Shown: positions 8,983 to 21,385 of the stretch, one piece after another | Position numbering within the stretch: the first letter of the stretch is position 1 | Layout of the letters: each line of letters opens with the position of its first letter | Assembly (NCBI RefSeq): GCF_003351045.1 | Contig: NZ_QQZY01000004.1 | Location: 186,001 to 250,000, forward strand | Direction: 5' to 3' | Origin: Gaiella occulta | Lineage (GTDB): Bacteria; Actinomycetota; Thermoleophilia; Gaiellales; Gaiellaceae | Length of the DNA stretch: 64,000 nucleotides | Made by a program: the position numbers and the translations under genes | The notes under the pieces: generated by a model | What the model saw: the letters and a program-made list of their open reading frames with translations, nothing else | Told to the model about the DNA's origin: nothing | Databases searched by the model: none

Positions 8983-10758
8983 CTATGCGGCGCGTTGAAG
9001 GGCGTAGATGCCTGTGTCGGCGTGCGGAGCGGCATGTGGCTGGGGAGCATGGCGGTCGGCGGCAGGCTTCGGGGACGCGTGCCGCCGCAGGACGGAGCCC
9101 GGATACACCAGGCGGAAGCACGCCCCGCCGGTTCGAGCGCGCTCGTAGACCAGGCTTCCTCCGGCTGCCTCGGCCGCCATGCGCGCGACGGCAAGGCCGA
9201 GTCCAGCCCCTGCCGCCTCCTCGCGTGACTCTTCGCTCCGTGCGAAAGCCTCGAAGAGGTGAGACGTGAAGGCGTCTGCGACACCGCGTCCGCTGTCCTC
9301 GACTGTCAGCGTGAACTCGTCGCCGGCGTCGACGGAGACGGTGATCGGCACGTCCCCGTACCGCACGGCGTTCGAGATCAGGTTCGCGACGATCGTCTCC
9401 ATCCCCACGACATCGGCATCGATGGTCAACGTCGGGTCAACGTGGATACCGATCTTCGGTGCATAATCGGGAGCCACCTGCCAGATGACCCGGCGGACCA
9501 GTTCATGCACTCCCACAGGGACGGCAAGCCTGACGGGCGACTGTGAGACGGCCATCCGGTTCTGCGCGTCCTCTCTTTCGGCCGAGCGGTTGCGGCTCCT
9601 GATGCGCAACGAGGAAGCAGCCTGCTCGAGCAGCTCGCGGCGCATGCTCCCGTGGAACCGCCGAAGCCAGAGCGGAACCGTGGATCGGTAGACGGCGAGC
9701 CTGTCGGCCCTGCTCAGGTCGGCGCGCTCGATGGCCAGAAGGTACTCGGCGAAGAGACGGAGGAACTCGGTCGTCTTTTCGTCGCCGCTTCCAGGATCGA
9801 ACCACTCTGCTACCTCGGCAGATGTGCGGTTTGCCGCGCGGGATGTGCCCTCGTGCGCCCGGCGGAAGAACAGAGGTTCCGGGATCTCCCAGAACTGACC
9901 AGCGAGCGCCAGCTCGACCAGAAGCACGTAGTCGGCAGAGATGTAGGAGCCGTGGCCGCGCGTTCCCCGCAGTACGTCGGTGCGCATGAGGCCAAAGACG
10001 GCATTGCTCAGAACGAGGTTGCGGATGAGGACGGCAACCCGTTCGTGCGGCCGTGCCTGACGAAGGTCCAGCCCGTCCTCGTACGTACCGACCGGTTTCC
10101 CGCTCTCATCGACGATGACCGTACGGGGGTACGCGACGACGACGGACATGGGAGCCCTGTCGAGAACCTCGACACACCTCTCGATATAGGTTGGGCCGCA
10201 GAGGTCGTCATGCGCGGCCCACTTGAAGTACCGGCCCCGGGCAAGAGCAAGGGCACGGTTGTAGTTCCACGCCGCCCCTCGGTTCACCTCCGAGCGGTGC
10301 ACGGAAACCCGTTCGTCACGCCGAGCAAACACCTGGCTGATGCGCGCGGTAGCGTCCGTGGAGCCGTTGTCGCAGACGATGATCTCGATATCTCCGAACG
10401 TCTGCGATACAAGCGAAGCAAGCGCCTGCTCGAGATAGCGCTCGCCGTTGTACACCGGGACGCCGATGCTCACGCTGGGGCCGGTCTGGCAGACGCGGCC
10501 GCCGCCCGAACCTGATCGTGTCATCGGGTGCGCGAAGCGCGGCGGTGCTGGATCGATCTCGATCCTTGCACCGTGCAGCGCCGCCCAGCCGTTGGCGCGA
10601 GCAGAAACGAACGCAGCGGCCTCCACCGCGCTCGGCAGCCAAGGACTGGACACCTCGACCGAACCGTCCGTGGGCGGCGCTACAAGACATCCGGCCTCCG
10701 TCAAAGCCCGCACGAGGCTCGGCATCAGGTAGGCAGGTTCGATGAGGGTTATCCGCAT
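8983..10758 (-). CDS. Glycosyltransferase family 2 fused to a histidine-kinase-type ATPase domain
   Basis: 591 residues in one open frame. Residues ~1-75 form a small N-terminal segment I do not recognise. Residues ~93-310 are a GT-A glycosyltransferase: SIGVPVYNGERYLEQ at ~97, DNGSTD at 130-135 and AAHDDL near 181 (nucleotide-sugar and metal-binding Asp). Residues ~415-555 are a HATPase_c domain: N-box NLISNAV at 459-465, G1 DSGRG at 488, F-box LFEAFARSEE and G2 GAGLGLA at 517. No HisKA dimerisation/phosphoacceptor helix is visible before the ATPase. No signal peptide or membrane helix is seen. The fusion is unusual. It could couple ATP binding or kinase signalling to glycosyl transfer. It stands alone, with empty flanks on both sides. 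Confidence 0.85.
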   Translation of the reverse strand: MRITLIEPAYLMPSLVRALTEAGCLVAPPTDGSVEVSSPWLPSAVEAAAFVSARANGWAALHGARIEIDPAPPRFAHPMTRSGSGGGRVCQTGPSVSIGVPVYNGERYLEQALASLVSQTFGDIEIIVCDNGSTDATARISQVFARRDERVSVHRSEVNRGAAWNYNRALALARGRYFKWAAHDDLCGPTYIERCVEVLDRAPMSVVVAYPRTVIVDESGKPVGTYEDGLDLRQARPHERVAVLIRNLVLSNAVFGLMRTDVLRGTRGHGSYISADYVLLVELALAGQFWEIPEPLFFRRAHEGTSRAANRTSAEVAEWFDPGSGDEKTTEFLRLFAEYLLAIERADLSRADRLAVYRSTVPLWLRRFHGSMRRELLEQAASSLRIRSRNRSAEREDAQNRMAVSQSPVRLAVPVGVHELVRRVIWQVAPDYAPKIGIHVDPTLTIDADVVGMETIVANLISNAVRYGDVPITVSVDAGDEFTLTVEDSGRGVADAFTSHLFEAFARSEESREEAAGAGLGLAVARMAAEAAGGSLVYERARTGGACFRLVYPGSVLRRHASPKPAADRHAPQPHAAPHADTGIYALQRAA

Positions 10759-11080: not shown

Positions 11081-11326
11081 ATGCCCCGTTCGCTGCACGT
11101 TCGCCTCGACGATGCTTCCGCCGCCGCGCTCGAGGTCGTTCGCGCCGGCGAGATGACGGATTCGGACGCGGTGCGCACGGCGCTGCGCGAGGCCGCTGCC
11201 CGCCGGCGCGTCCGCTCGGCGCTTCGCGAGGAGGTGCGGCGCGTGGCGGCCGACGAGGGCGATCGCGAGGAGATGCGGATCGTCCGGGAGCAGCTGGCCG
11301 AGCTGGCGCCACGCTCGCCGGGCTGA
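11081..11326 (+). CDS. Ribbon-helix-helix antitoxin
   Basis: 81 residues. The N-terminal RSLHVRLDDASAAALEVV strand followed by two helices is the RHH DNA-binding fold. The basic, Arg/Glu-rich C-terminus is the usual toxin-binding tail. It is followed 1 nt later by a MazF/PemK-like toxin, the standard antitoxin-first order. A TACGCT box ends 6 nt before the ATG, so the message is probably leaderless or nearly so. It should repress its own operon through the palindrome just upstream and neutralise the toxin. Confidence 0.75.
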   Translation: MPRSLHVRLDDASAAALEVVRAGEMTDSDAVRTALREAAARRRVRSALREEVRRVAADEGDREEMRIVREQLAELAPRSPG

Positions 11327-11327
11327 G

Positions 11328-11645
11328 ATGGTCCGCGGCGAGGTCTTCCACCTGCCCCCGCGGCGCGGAGCGCGCGGCCATGAACAGCGCGGTGCCCGCT
11401 ACGCGGTGATCGTGCAGGCCGACGAGTTCCTCGAGCTCAGCACCACGCTCGTCGCGCCAACCTCGGCGAGCGCGCGGCCGGCGAGCTTCCGCCCGGCGAT
11501 CACGATCGGCGGACGCGAGACGCGTGTTCTCGTCGAACAGACGACCGTGGTCGACCCGCGGCGCCTCGGCCGGCCGGCGGGGCGCCTCGACGCGGGCGAG
11601 CTGCGCGCCGTGGACGAGGCGCTCGGCCTCATCCTCGGCCTCTGA
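11328..11645 (+). CDS. MazF/PemK-family mRNA interferase toxin
   Basis: 105 residues, normal for the family. It opens with the RGEVFHLP beta strand and the R...G...R...V segment (RGHEQRGARYAVIVQAD) typical of MazF/PemK (RGDVW...PxxGSEQ-type). The VAPTSASARP and VLVEQTTVVDPRRLG strands follow. Family members are sequence-specific endoribonucleases that stop growth when the antitoxin is lost. The glycine/arginine pattern of the active-site loop is modified from the MazF consensus, so activity is likely but not certain. Confidence 0.75.
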   Translation: MVRGEVFHLPPRRGARGHEQRGARYAVIVQADEFLELSTTLVAPTSASARPASFRPAITIGGRETRVLVEQTTVVDPRRLGRPAGRLDAGELRAVDEALGLILGL

Positions 11646-13445: not shown

Positions 13446-13988
13446 TCAGAGGGGCTCGGCCGACCGCCCTTCGACGCCGTGCCGCTTCAGAGACGCTCGC
13501 ACGTCCTCCAGCAACGTCATGAGGTGAAGCGGGTCGGTCGGCGACTCCTCGAAGCCGTACTGCATGTACCACGCCTCCGCGGCGTCGTGCGTGGCGTGCA
13601 CGAGGAGGACGCGAGCGCCGATCGCCTCCGCCGCCTCCAGGCATCGGAGCAGGACGTCCTGGAGCAGCGAGCGGCCGAGGCCGGCGCCTTGGTGCCCGCG
13701 GTCGACAGCGAGCCCGGCGAGCAGGATCGCCGCTACCGGCCTCGCCCGAGGCTGGCCCTTGAGCGCTCGCGCGGCGGCGTTTTCCGGGGCGACCTGCGCG
13801 GCCGCGAGCGCGTAGTAGCCGACGACCGTCTGTCCGTCCTCGAGCGTCGTGACGAACACGCGGGCGGAGCCTGAGGCGTGCGCGCCGCGTGCGTGCCGCC
13901 GGAGCCACTTGTCGAGCGCCTGCTCGCCGCAGTCGAACTGGTCGAGGCGGTGGTGCTTCCCGAGCGGCTCGGGGCGCCGGTAGGCCAC
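13446..13988 (-). CDS. GNAT-family acetyltransferase toxin (TacT-like)
   Basis: 180 residues, GTG start. The start PEPLGKHHRLDQFDCGEQALDKWLRRHA is the hallmark N-terminus of TacT/AtaT-type toxins that acetylate the amino acid on charged tRNA. The acetyl-CoA loop is VDRGHQGAGLGRSLL and the late catalytic Tyr lies in AWYMQYGF. The upstream gene, 3 nt away, is a DUF1778 antitoxin. The pair is therefore a type II TA system. Target tRNA cannot be told from the sequence. Confidence 0.85.
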   Translation of the reverse strand: MAYRRPEPLGKHHRLDQFDCGEQALDKWLRRHARGAHASGSARVFVTTLEDGQTVVGYYALAAAQVAPENAAARALKGQPRARPVAAILLAGLAVDRGHQGAGLGRSLLQDVLLRCLEAAEAIGARVLLVHATHDAAEAWYMQYGFEESPTDPLHLMTLLEDVRASLKRHGVEGRSAEPL

Positions 13989-13991
13989 CGG

Positions 13992-14264
13992 CTAGTCGGC
14001 GCTGAAGACGCTCGGCTTGGAGAAGAGCTTCTCGAGGCCCGGGTTGTCCTGCGGCGAGCGGTCGAGCAGCGCGACGAACCGCTCCCACCGCTCGGGCTCG
14101 AGGACGAACTCCCGCCGGTCGGCGAGCAGCCGCTCAGCCTCGACGGCTGCCGCGTCGACGACGAAGTCGGTCAGCGTCCGCTCCGCGGTCTGCGCCGCCT
14201 GCCGGACGAGGCGGTCTGTCTCCGGATCGACGCGGAAGTCCCAGCGCTCCTTGACCTTGCTCAT
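13992..14264 (-). CDS. DUF1778 (TacA-like) antitoxin
   Basis: 90 residues. The N-terminal RHH motif is ERWDFRVDPETDRLVRQAAQ followed by TLTDFVVDAAAVEAE. The C-terminal toxin-wrapping tail has LEPERWERFVALLDRSP and PGLEKLFSKPSVF. ATG 14264 begins MSKVKERW. It is followed at once by the GNAT toxin. A possible promoter reading leftward is TTGCGA, 17 nt, TACAGC between 14300 and 14272, and TGTAC/GTACA arms at 14274-14294 could be an operator; both are weak. Confidence 0.82.
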   Translation of the reverse strand: MSKVKERWDFRVDPETDRLVRQAAQTAERTLTDFVVDAAAVEAERLLADRREFVLEPERWERFVALLDRSPQDNPGLEKLFSKPSVFSAD

Positions 14265-14418
14265 GCACCGAGCTGTACACACATCGTCCGTACATCGCAA
14301 GAGGCGACCGACTACGAAGCGAGGCTCGCACGGACGAGGGCCCGCGTCCGGTGGAGGGCCGCCACTGGGCACCGCCATGAGCGGTTGGCGTGCCGTTGGC
14401 GTTACGGGCTTCTCCAGC

Positions 14419-14438
14419 CTATGCGGAGCTCCGCATAG
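14419..14438. repeat. Perfect 20-bp palindrome
   Basis: CTATGCGGAG-CTCCGCATAG, with no spacer, in a ~300-bp gene-free stretch between the TacA-like antitoxin start and the 3' end of the NERD gene. No gene starts next to it. It may be a regulator site, a recombination site or a remnant of an inverted repeat. Confidence 0.6.
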
Positions 14439-14563
14439 ACGGGTCAAGTCCAGTTCCAATTCCGATTCGAATCCCGTTCGGAACAACAGCCAGGAGTGGG
14501 CGCAGCCAGTACCGAAAAGGGAGAACGACAGGCCGGCTCGCTCGGCTGCGGATCACCGAAATG

Positions 14564-18524: not shown

Positions 18525-18751
18525 GCCGCAAAGGGAAACACGATCCCCCACGCGAACACCCTGAAGAGATCAGCAGGGACTTCCTTCAGGGTGGCGGACG
18601 CCACTCCACGGCGTTCCACGGGAGACTCGGAGCTTTCCGCCCCATCCAGACCCCATGGCTGTGCCGCCTTTCCTGACAACGCGTCGATATCGGCGCGGCA
18701 CGAGTATGGGATGAACCTCGGACGGGAGCGGCCAGGGTCGTGTCCGACGTT
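18525..18751. other. Gap after the tRNA fragment, no gene seen
   Basis: About 230 bp of lower coding character between the tRNA-Asp fragment and the AbiE operator. Frames crossing it spell the well-known spurious peptide created by tRNA sequence and are not genes. Confidence 0.4.
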
Positions 18752-18770
18752 TGAGGGTTAATATCCCTCA
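18752..18770 (+). promoter_or_regulatory. AbiE promoter with overlapping inverted-repeat operator
   Basis: TGAGGG-TTAATAT-CCCTCA: 6-bp perfect arms flanking a -10 box TAATAT at 18759-18764. The ATG of abiEi follows 7 nt after the -10, so transcription would start at or next to the start codon (leaderless). AbiEi antitoxins are known negative autoregulators that bind inverted repeats, which fits this arrangement. Confidence 0.65.
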
Positions 18771-18771
18771 T

Positions 18772-19374
18772 ATGTCTGACAGGATCGACCACGACAGCCT
18801 CTATCGGCTTGCCGAGTCGCAGGCAGGCTATTTCACGGCCGAGCAGGCCCTCCAGACAGGGATGGACCGAAGCACCCTCCTTCACCATGCCCGTCCCGGT
18901 GGGCGCTACGAGCGCGTTCGGCGCGGGCTCTACCGGCTGCGCCACTTTCCGTCGAGTCCGCACGAGCACGTCGTCGCCGCGTGGCTCGACCTGCCGGCAC
19001 CGGCGGTTGTCTCCCACGAAAGTGCGCTCGAGCTGTACGAGCTGTCCGATGTCATCCCGAACGCGGTTCACATCACCCTTCCGCGCGAGAAGCGCGGCCG
19101 GCGTCCCAGAGCCGGTGTCAAGTTCCACATGCTCACGCAGGCACCGAGTCCCAACGAGGTCAGGCGCGTCGACGGCGTCCTCGCGACTACCCCCGAACGG
19201 ACGATCGTCGACTCGCTCGAAGCAGGAACGCAGCCGGAGCAGATCGAGCTTGCGATTGGACAGGCGCTCGAGCGCGGTCTGACGACGCCTCGTCGACTGC
19301 GTTCCGCGGCCGACGACCGCTCCAACCGTGTCCGCCAATTCATCGATCGCGTACTCGCGGAGCATGCGGCGTGA
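18772..19374 (+). CDS. abiEi: AbiEi-family antitoxin/transcriptional regulator (type IV TA)
   Basis: 200 residues. The N-terminal winged helix (LYRLAESQAGYFTAEQALQTGM followed by RYERVRRGLYRLRHFP) is the AbiEi_4-like DNA-binding domain. The C-terminal domain has VSHESALELYELSDVIPNAVHITLP and TTPERTIVDSLEAG. ATG 18772 is used; there is no ribosome-binding site, consistent with a leaderless transcript. The toxin AbiEii follows with a GTGA overlap. AbiEi counters the toxin without binding it directly and represses the operon. The pair sits between two tRNA-Asp repeats, as cargo of the element. Confidence 0.85.
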   Translation: MSDRIDHDSLYRLAESQAGYFTAEQALQTGMDRSTLLHHARPGGRYERVRRGLYRLRHFPSSPHEHVVAAWLDLPAPAVVSHESALELYELSDVIPNAVHITLPREKRGRRPRAGVKFHMLTQAPSPNEVRRVDGVLATTPERTIVDSLEAGTQPEQIELAIGQALERGLTTPRRLRSAADDRSNRVRQFIDRVLAEHAA

Positions 19375-20397: not shown

Positions 20398-21306
20398 TTG
20401 GAGCGCCGGGCAGTCCCGGAGGCGCGTAGCGCCGGAGGGACTGTCTCCCTCGCGGCGTGGCTGAACGCCAAGGGCGCGCGGACGGCGCGTGGGCGCGCCT
20501 TCGGCAAGGACACCGTCCGCGAGATGCTCGTCAACGCCGCCTACTGCGGCTACGTCTGCGGGCTACGCAGCAAGGACCGCTCCGTCCGCGGGCTGCACGA
20601 GACGCTCGTTGCGGAGGAGTTGTTCGAGCGCGTGCAGGAGATCCGCGCCTGGCGCACGCGCGTCGTCAAGCCCGGCAGGCCCTTGGAGGACTACCTGCTG
20701 CGCAAGCTCCTCCACTGCGAGCGGTGCGGCTCTCGGATGCACGGGACGCGCGGCTCGCGCGCCGGCATCCGCCGCTACATCTGCTCGACCCGCCGCTACT
20801 CGCCCGACTGCGACCAGCCAATCGTCAAAGCAGAACCGCTCGAAGATCAGCTCGTCGACTGGATGCGCGACTTCCAGACGGACACGCAGCTGCGAGCGCA
20901 CATACTCGCCGCACTCCGCACCGAGGCGCAGGACAACGGAGGCGACAACGCCGAGCGCCGGCGCGAGCTGCATGGCCAGCTCGACCGGCTCCGCGACCTC
21001 TACGTACTCGGCGACCTCACCAAGAGCCAATACGTGCTCAGACGGCAGGCGCTCCAGGAAGAGCTCGAGCGGACATCGCCGCCGCTCGACCCACGCCTCG
21101 AGCAAGCCGAGGCGCTGCTCTCCGACTTCGCACGCTTCTGGCAGACCGAGCCCTCGCCGGCCGAACGGCGGAAACTGCTCGCAAGCCTCTTCGACCGAGT
21201 CTGGCAGGACGGCGGGATCGTCGTCGCCGTCAGGCCGCGCGCGCCGTTCGTCCGCTATTTCAAGGCGGCCGAACGGCTCAACCGCCCTCGTAATAGGCGG
21301 GGTGAC
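20398..21306 (+). pseudogene. N-terminally truncated large serine recombinase (integrase) remnant
   Basis: About 300 codons of the C-terminal part. It holds the end of the recombinase domain (SLAAWLNAKGARTARGRAFGKDTVREML, residues ~17-45), then the zinc ribbon (LLHCERCGSRM ... YICSTRRYSPDCDQP) and a long coiled coil (ERRRELHGQLDRLRDLYVLGDLTKSQYVLR). The catalytic resolvase domain with the Ser nucleophile, about 150 residues, is missing. The 137 bp upstream do not encode it. The open frame runs on into the tRNA-Asp gene, so the true end is near 21306. It is probably inactive for strand exchange. Confidence 0.82.
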
Positions 21307-21311
21307 AATAG

Positions 21312-21385
<74 letters not shown>

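Follow-up and report, generated by a model that had tools for sequence, protein, structure and literature searches.

A glycosyltransferase joined to a histidine-kinase-type ATP-binding domain and a small ferredoxin-like domain in two related bacterial genomes

A single gene of Gaiella occulta encodes a GT2 glycosyltransferase that is joined to a histidine-kinase-type catalytic/ATP-binding (CA, HATPase_c) domain and preceded by a small N-terminal domain. The gene is located on the minus strand at positions 8983-10758 of the window, i.e. the whole 64,000-nucleotide stretch of DNA that was analysed. It begins with ATG and no internal stop was found across its 591 codons, in agreement with the one uninterrupted frame claimed by a first-pass annotation of this DNA, which left the strand unstated. 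Absent from that annotation were the N-terminal domain, which makes a third module, and an orthologue of the same architecture. The fusion is real but rare. It places an ATP-binding half without a phosphoacceptor in one chain with a putative surface-glycan enzyme, and the ATP site is kept down to 55% sequence identity. The fusion may link the building of cell-surface sugars to cellular ATP or to signalling.

The orthologue is encoded at L009:4995-6689 on the 9078-base contig JAICUZ010000094.1 (identical to G315:C265), from a genome placed in the same family as the window genome and in another genus. The two proteins are 55% identical; a scan of the genome contigs matched the second copy to residues 1-553 of the window protein, and all three modules are present. 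We note that the NCBI title of this contig, Burkholderiales MAG HEB_FP_1_bin.11, looks wrong. The transfer between phyla that it would imply was rejected, as the identical contig occurs in G315, a genome of the window's own family.

The window genome is a draft of 34 contigs, and the first-pass annotation had named a misassembly between the two domains, or homologues always split in two genes, as findings that would speak against a single protein. That two unrelated genes were joined by the assembly is exceedingly improbable, because the same three modules recur in a second, separately assembled genome, in another genus and among different neighbours. Moreover, the frame is open over the junction and each surrounding segment has a coding-type GC3. 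Homologues are not always split either, as the second genome has a fused copy; all remaining relatives that were found are stand-alone GT2s, but these are paralogues. The fusion occurs in 2 out of 103 genomes of the family; searches of these, of 60 relatives and of 399 genomes from the class, as well as of plasmids and viral contigs, detected no further copy. A short-peptide scan of 84,980 species, which has limited sensitivity, returned the L009 protein alone.

The GT2 domain occupies residues 93-385 (9604-10482). Its Pfam match to Glycos_transf_2 (PF00535) covers residues 97-215 with an E-value of 2.4e-27 and 96.3 bits, against a cut-off of 23.3; the second copy reaches 104.4 bits. The AlphaFold model of the whole protein shows a GT-A fold in this region, with 10-residue block means of pLDDT mostly at 88-98 (one block at 78). 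The Foldseek matches of the GT2 model are chondroitin polymerase, SpsA and TarS, i.e. processive and cluster GT2 enzymes. The DD motif noted earlier is found as an HDD motif (D184/D185), which is kept in the second copy, and in the alignment D184/D185 and D276, the latter as the conserved catalytic acidic residue, are invariant or nearly so among GT2 relatives. By sequence and predicted fold the protein is thus a GT2 enzyme, with a predicted activity. Sequence and fold matches show that it has the GT-A fold and the HDD metal motif in common with the GT2s of polysaccharide clusters (PF00535; EpsE, TuaG, SpsA, chondroitin polymerase), but while those stand alone or are joined to other glycosyltransferase domains, the fusion has extra N- and C-terminal modules. 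A long helix is predicted at residues 350-405, running from the GT2 towards the CA domain.

The CA domain covers residues 413-556 (9091-9522) and is followed by a C-terminal tail (residues 557-591, 8986-9090) that is predicted to be disordered (block pLDDT about 30-35). The HATPase_c match (PF02518) spans residues 449-553 with an E-value of 8.3e-21 and 74.9 bits, against a cut-off of 26.4. All of the boxes listed in the first-pass annotation are present: the N box with N463, the G1 box with D488-x-G490-x-G492, the F box with F502/F505 and the G2 box with G517-x-G519-L-G521. An alignment of 11 related kinases has 27 invariant columns; both fusions retain 25 of these, among them N463, D488, G490, G492, F502, F505, G517, G519 and G521. 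In agreement with the annotation, which had stated that a HisKA phosphoacceptor is lacking, none was found here: Pfam gave no HisKA match in the fusion even at E <= 1, a HisKA search of the window genome did not pick up the protein, and no H-box is seen in an alignment with 11 HisKA kinases. A receiver domain (Response_reg) was likewise not detected by Pfam in the fusion. Judged by its sequence, the protein is not a histidine kinase, because the phosphoacceptor is absent. In the whole-protein AlphaFold model the pLDDT of the CA domain is about 43-67, with few sequences in its alignment, and the model is uninformative on contacts between the GT2 and CA domains.

The closest relatives of the CA domain lie in its own lineage. 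The best matches to a profile built from both CA domains are ordinary histidine kinases from the same family and order (E-values down to 1.8e-37), some of which resemble GAF-HisKA-HATPase proteins, with domains named by eye. In the alignment, the CA domain of the fusion is 36-46% identical to those of the 11 HisKA kinases, which are from the same order. The similarity starts just after the DHp domain, and the HELRTP region is replaced by a variable linker (residues 386-412, 9523-9603), which takes the position of the kinase DHp (HisKA) domain and has no H-box. With HisKA kinases of the same family (the GAF-HisKA-HATPase_c proteins L122 and L123 and the membrane kinases L118-L121) the fusion shares 40-46% identity in the CA domain and all ATP boxes; unlike them, it has neither a HisKA/DHp nor a sensor domain, and the GT2 takes their place. 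This pattern of sequence similarity indicates that the CA domain was captured from a HisKA-type kinase of its own lineage and joined at the DHp/CA border. At four positions (418, 455, 483 and 504) an arginine that is frequent among HisKA kinases is lost in both fusions, which may mean that contacts with a DHp domain were given up. A GHKL ATP site without HisKA is also common to serine kinases of the RsbW/SpoIIAB type (HATPase_c_2); unlike these, the fusion carries a CA domain of the histidine kinase type, and its HATPase_c_2 match stays under the cut-off (19.7 versus 27.4 bits; 21.7 in the second copy).

The N-terminal domain (residues 1-70, 10549-10758) has a predicted beta-alpha-beta-beta-alpha-beta, i.e. 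ferredoxin-like, order of elements according to AlphaFold, with a mean pLDDT of 91.8; the whole-protein model is confident for this domain too. A flexible linker (residues 71-92, 10483-10548) separates it from the GT2 domain, as suggested by the alignment and by a pLDDT of about 42-46 for residues 71-90. The domain opens up a widespread family of tiny proteins in this bacterial class for which there is no Pfam model. Most members stand alone and have about 70 amino acids; the search retrieved stand-alone proteins of about 70-100 amino acids. Comparison with a profile of nine of them gave a probability of 95.4% and an E-value of 2e-8; a profile of 33 relatives matches the fusion at E 5.9e-7, assuming 1000 targets, and the second copy more weakly (E 0.0025). 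When 299 genomes of the class were searched with the nine-relative profile, 45 of them had family members at E <= 1e-6; the loci are L148:1426-1725 and L150-L186. The matches of the first searches with the N-terminal domain were dismissed as chance, and true relatives emerged only in the wider search. The first of these, L148, was barely above chance (E 2.8e-4 per genome, 399 genomes), and a second round of searching with L148 gave more.

We also note that there are often several members of this small-protein family per genome, and that, besides the ferredoxin-like pattern, they have a conserved L..W motif. Pfam assigned the stand-alone relatives to no convincing family, and a PDB fold search with the N-terminal domain gave only weak ferredoxin-fold matches (E > 0.03). 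The surroundings of the stand-alone genes vary, and no constant neighbourhood was seen among 15 loci; two of the 15 directly adjoin NarL-type response regulators, as judged by eye from the translations.

The gene neighbourhood of the second copy points to a sugar pathway. In L009/G315 the gene row consists of a PhyH-like protein, a glucose-1-phosphate cytidylyltransferase (TIGR02623 match over the cut-off), an NAD-dependent epimerase/dehydratase, two C-methyltransferases and a stand-alone GT2 (306 amino acids). After a gap of 233 bases the fusion follows, with the same orientation, as the last gene visible before the contig ends. We take these genes to be a set for a CDP-activated, C-methyl-branched sugar. 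The window genome has a matching cluster on contig C3 (about 345 kb), again with a stand-alone GT2 but here lacking an adjacent fusion, and its fusion is found alone on contig C4, far from the sugar cluster. In a tree of 63 GT2 domains the two fused domains group together (100/96), as do the two cluster GT2s (100/99), and the four form a common group (99/93). Because the fused domains pair with each other as sisters to the cluster GT2s, the tree indicates that one GT2 was duplicated and that the copy was fused once, before the two genomes parted. Among the 103 family genomes nothing else matches either the fusion or the cluster GT2 at E <= 1e-60, so within this set both are confined to the same two genomes. 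It is also seen that the GC3 of the fusion is 0.77-0.78 in both genomes despite the different locations, as against mostly 0.84-0.93 in the cluster genes.

The selection acting on the modules was estimated from the two copies by the Nei-Gojobori method; dS is near saturation, which makes the values rough. For the GT2 domain dN is 0.30 and dS 1.1 (dN/dS about 0.28), and for the CA domain dN is 0.46 and dS 0.98 (dN/dS about 0.47). The linker at residues 386-412 has dN 1.57 and dS 1.91 (dN/dS about 0.8) and only 14% identity between the copies, and in the N-terminal domain dN is 0.62 with dS saturated. Rough as they are, these values show that the GT2 and CA domains are under purifying selection and that the linker is hardly constrained. 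The CA domain is the less constrained of the two, and a slow loss of its function could be under way.

The usual view is that two-component modules act on enzymes via phosphorylated receiver domains. For the fusion we tentatively put forward, as the likeliest explanation, another kind of connection, i.e. that it is a functional GT2 for a surface glycan, in which the captured CA domain would act as an ATP-binding regulatory module, next to an N-terminal domain from a lineage-specific small-protein family. The GT2 would probably add a sugar from, or onto, a cell-surface glycan with the CDP-activated, C-methyl-branched sugar. The CA domain would bind ATP-Mg; its lid and the neighbouring helices would then shift the position or the activity of the glycosyltransferase, and glycan assembly would thereby follow ATP or a bound partner. 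The N-terminal domain would be a docking or oligomerisation part. Here, ATP binding, the coupling of the GT2 and CA domains and the sugar used are what we infer; the key residues of both enzymatic modules are retained, with only 55% identity between the two copies. It is possible, though in our view doubtful in this detail, that ATP binding in the captured domain, a GHKL ATPase serving as a cis-regulator, switches the glycosyltransferase and that the unnamed ferredoxin-like family provides the docking module. Should the coupling hold, it would mean direct control of a glycan by ATP and the reuse of a CA domain outside phosphotransfer. The ATP-gated glycosyltransferase proposed in the first-pass annotation is a fair hypothesis. 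Its other proposal, a new kinase that senses sugar chemistry, is the weaker one: lacking a phosphoacceptor itself, the protein would need a partner as its substrate in order to work as a kinase.

Action on such a partner is the main rival explanation, and we regard it as unlikely. The CA domain would phosphorylate in trans the histidine of a DHp/HisKA or Hpt protein that lacks an ATP-binding domain, and the glycosyltransferase would report its state into a phosphorelay. The intact CA boxes and the very lack of a phosphoacceptor beside the ATP domain are consistent with such a division, and 1 out of 17 HisKA matches in the window genome (G000:C1:144036, with an Hpt-HisKA-REC order) has no HATPase_c in its frame. 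However, this candidate partner is encoded on another contig and has a response-regulator gene of its own, and the loss of the four arginines in both fusions may have cost the contacts that a DHp domain would need. There is a precedent for a split histidine kinase in CheA3/CheA4 of Rhodobacter sphaeroides (PMC3591291), where, as would be the case here, ATP-binding domain and phosphoacceptor sit on different proteins; CheA4, however, is a chemotaxis protein, whereas the fusion is a putative sugar-transfer enzyme with only a candidate partner. We note that the Hpt-HisKA-REC protein (L202:2248-3666, G000:C1:143247-144665) lies directly after a LuxR-type response-regulator gene.

The CA domain could also be a structural remnant, captured by accident and serving only in folding, dimerisation or docking with no ATP-dependent function, so that the protein would simply be another cluster glycosyltransferase. 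The faster evolution of the CA domain compared with the GT2, the nearly unconstrained linker, a GC3 under that of most neighbours and the presence in two family genomes only would all fit this explanation, which we likewise consider improbable. Were nucleotide binding useless, however, the two diverged copies would not be expected to have both preserved the ATP-box columns, and this conservation favours a regulatory module over a mere remnant.

The first-pass annotation knew of no described protein with this combination, and our search of the open-licence literature also returned no paper on GT2 plus HATPase_c proteins. The nearest precedent is found in archaea, where a census of two-component systems describes REC-BcsA-type glycosyltransferase fusions confined to three genera of Methanobacteriaceae (PMC5847659). 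These MTH_548-type proteins resemble the fusion in joining a two-component module to a GT2-type glycosyltransferase and in their narrow phyletic spread; they differ in that a REC domain is joined to a BcsA-like enzyme in archaea, whereas in the fusion the CA domain is combined with a GT2 of the bacterial cluster type. The fusion belongs to a known kind of protein, an enzyme joined to a two-component module, and its mechanism is presumed.

Several likely toxin-antitoxin genes are located near the fusion (11081-11645, 13446-14486 and 18751-19374). They include a PemK/MazF-like toxin whose gene is preceded by a small one, taken by eye for the antitoxin (no Pfam match), and a GNAT that, again by eye, pairs with a possible DUF1778-type protein. 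Pfam also identifies an AbiEi-like regulator. Further on, a recombinase frame (20398-21385; PF07508, Zn_ribbon_recom) overlaps at its end a tRNA-Asp gene (21311-21385, minus strand). An integrated island may have its edge here, and the fusion and several of the toxin-antitoxin genes could lie within it.
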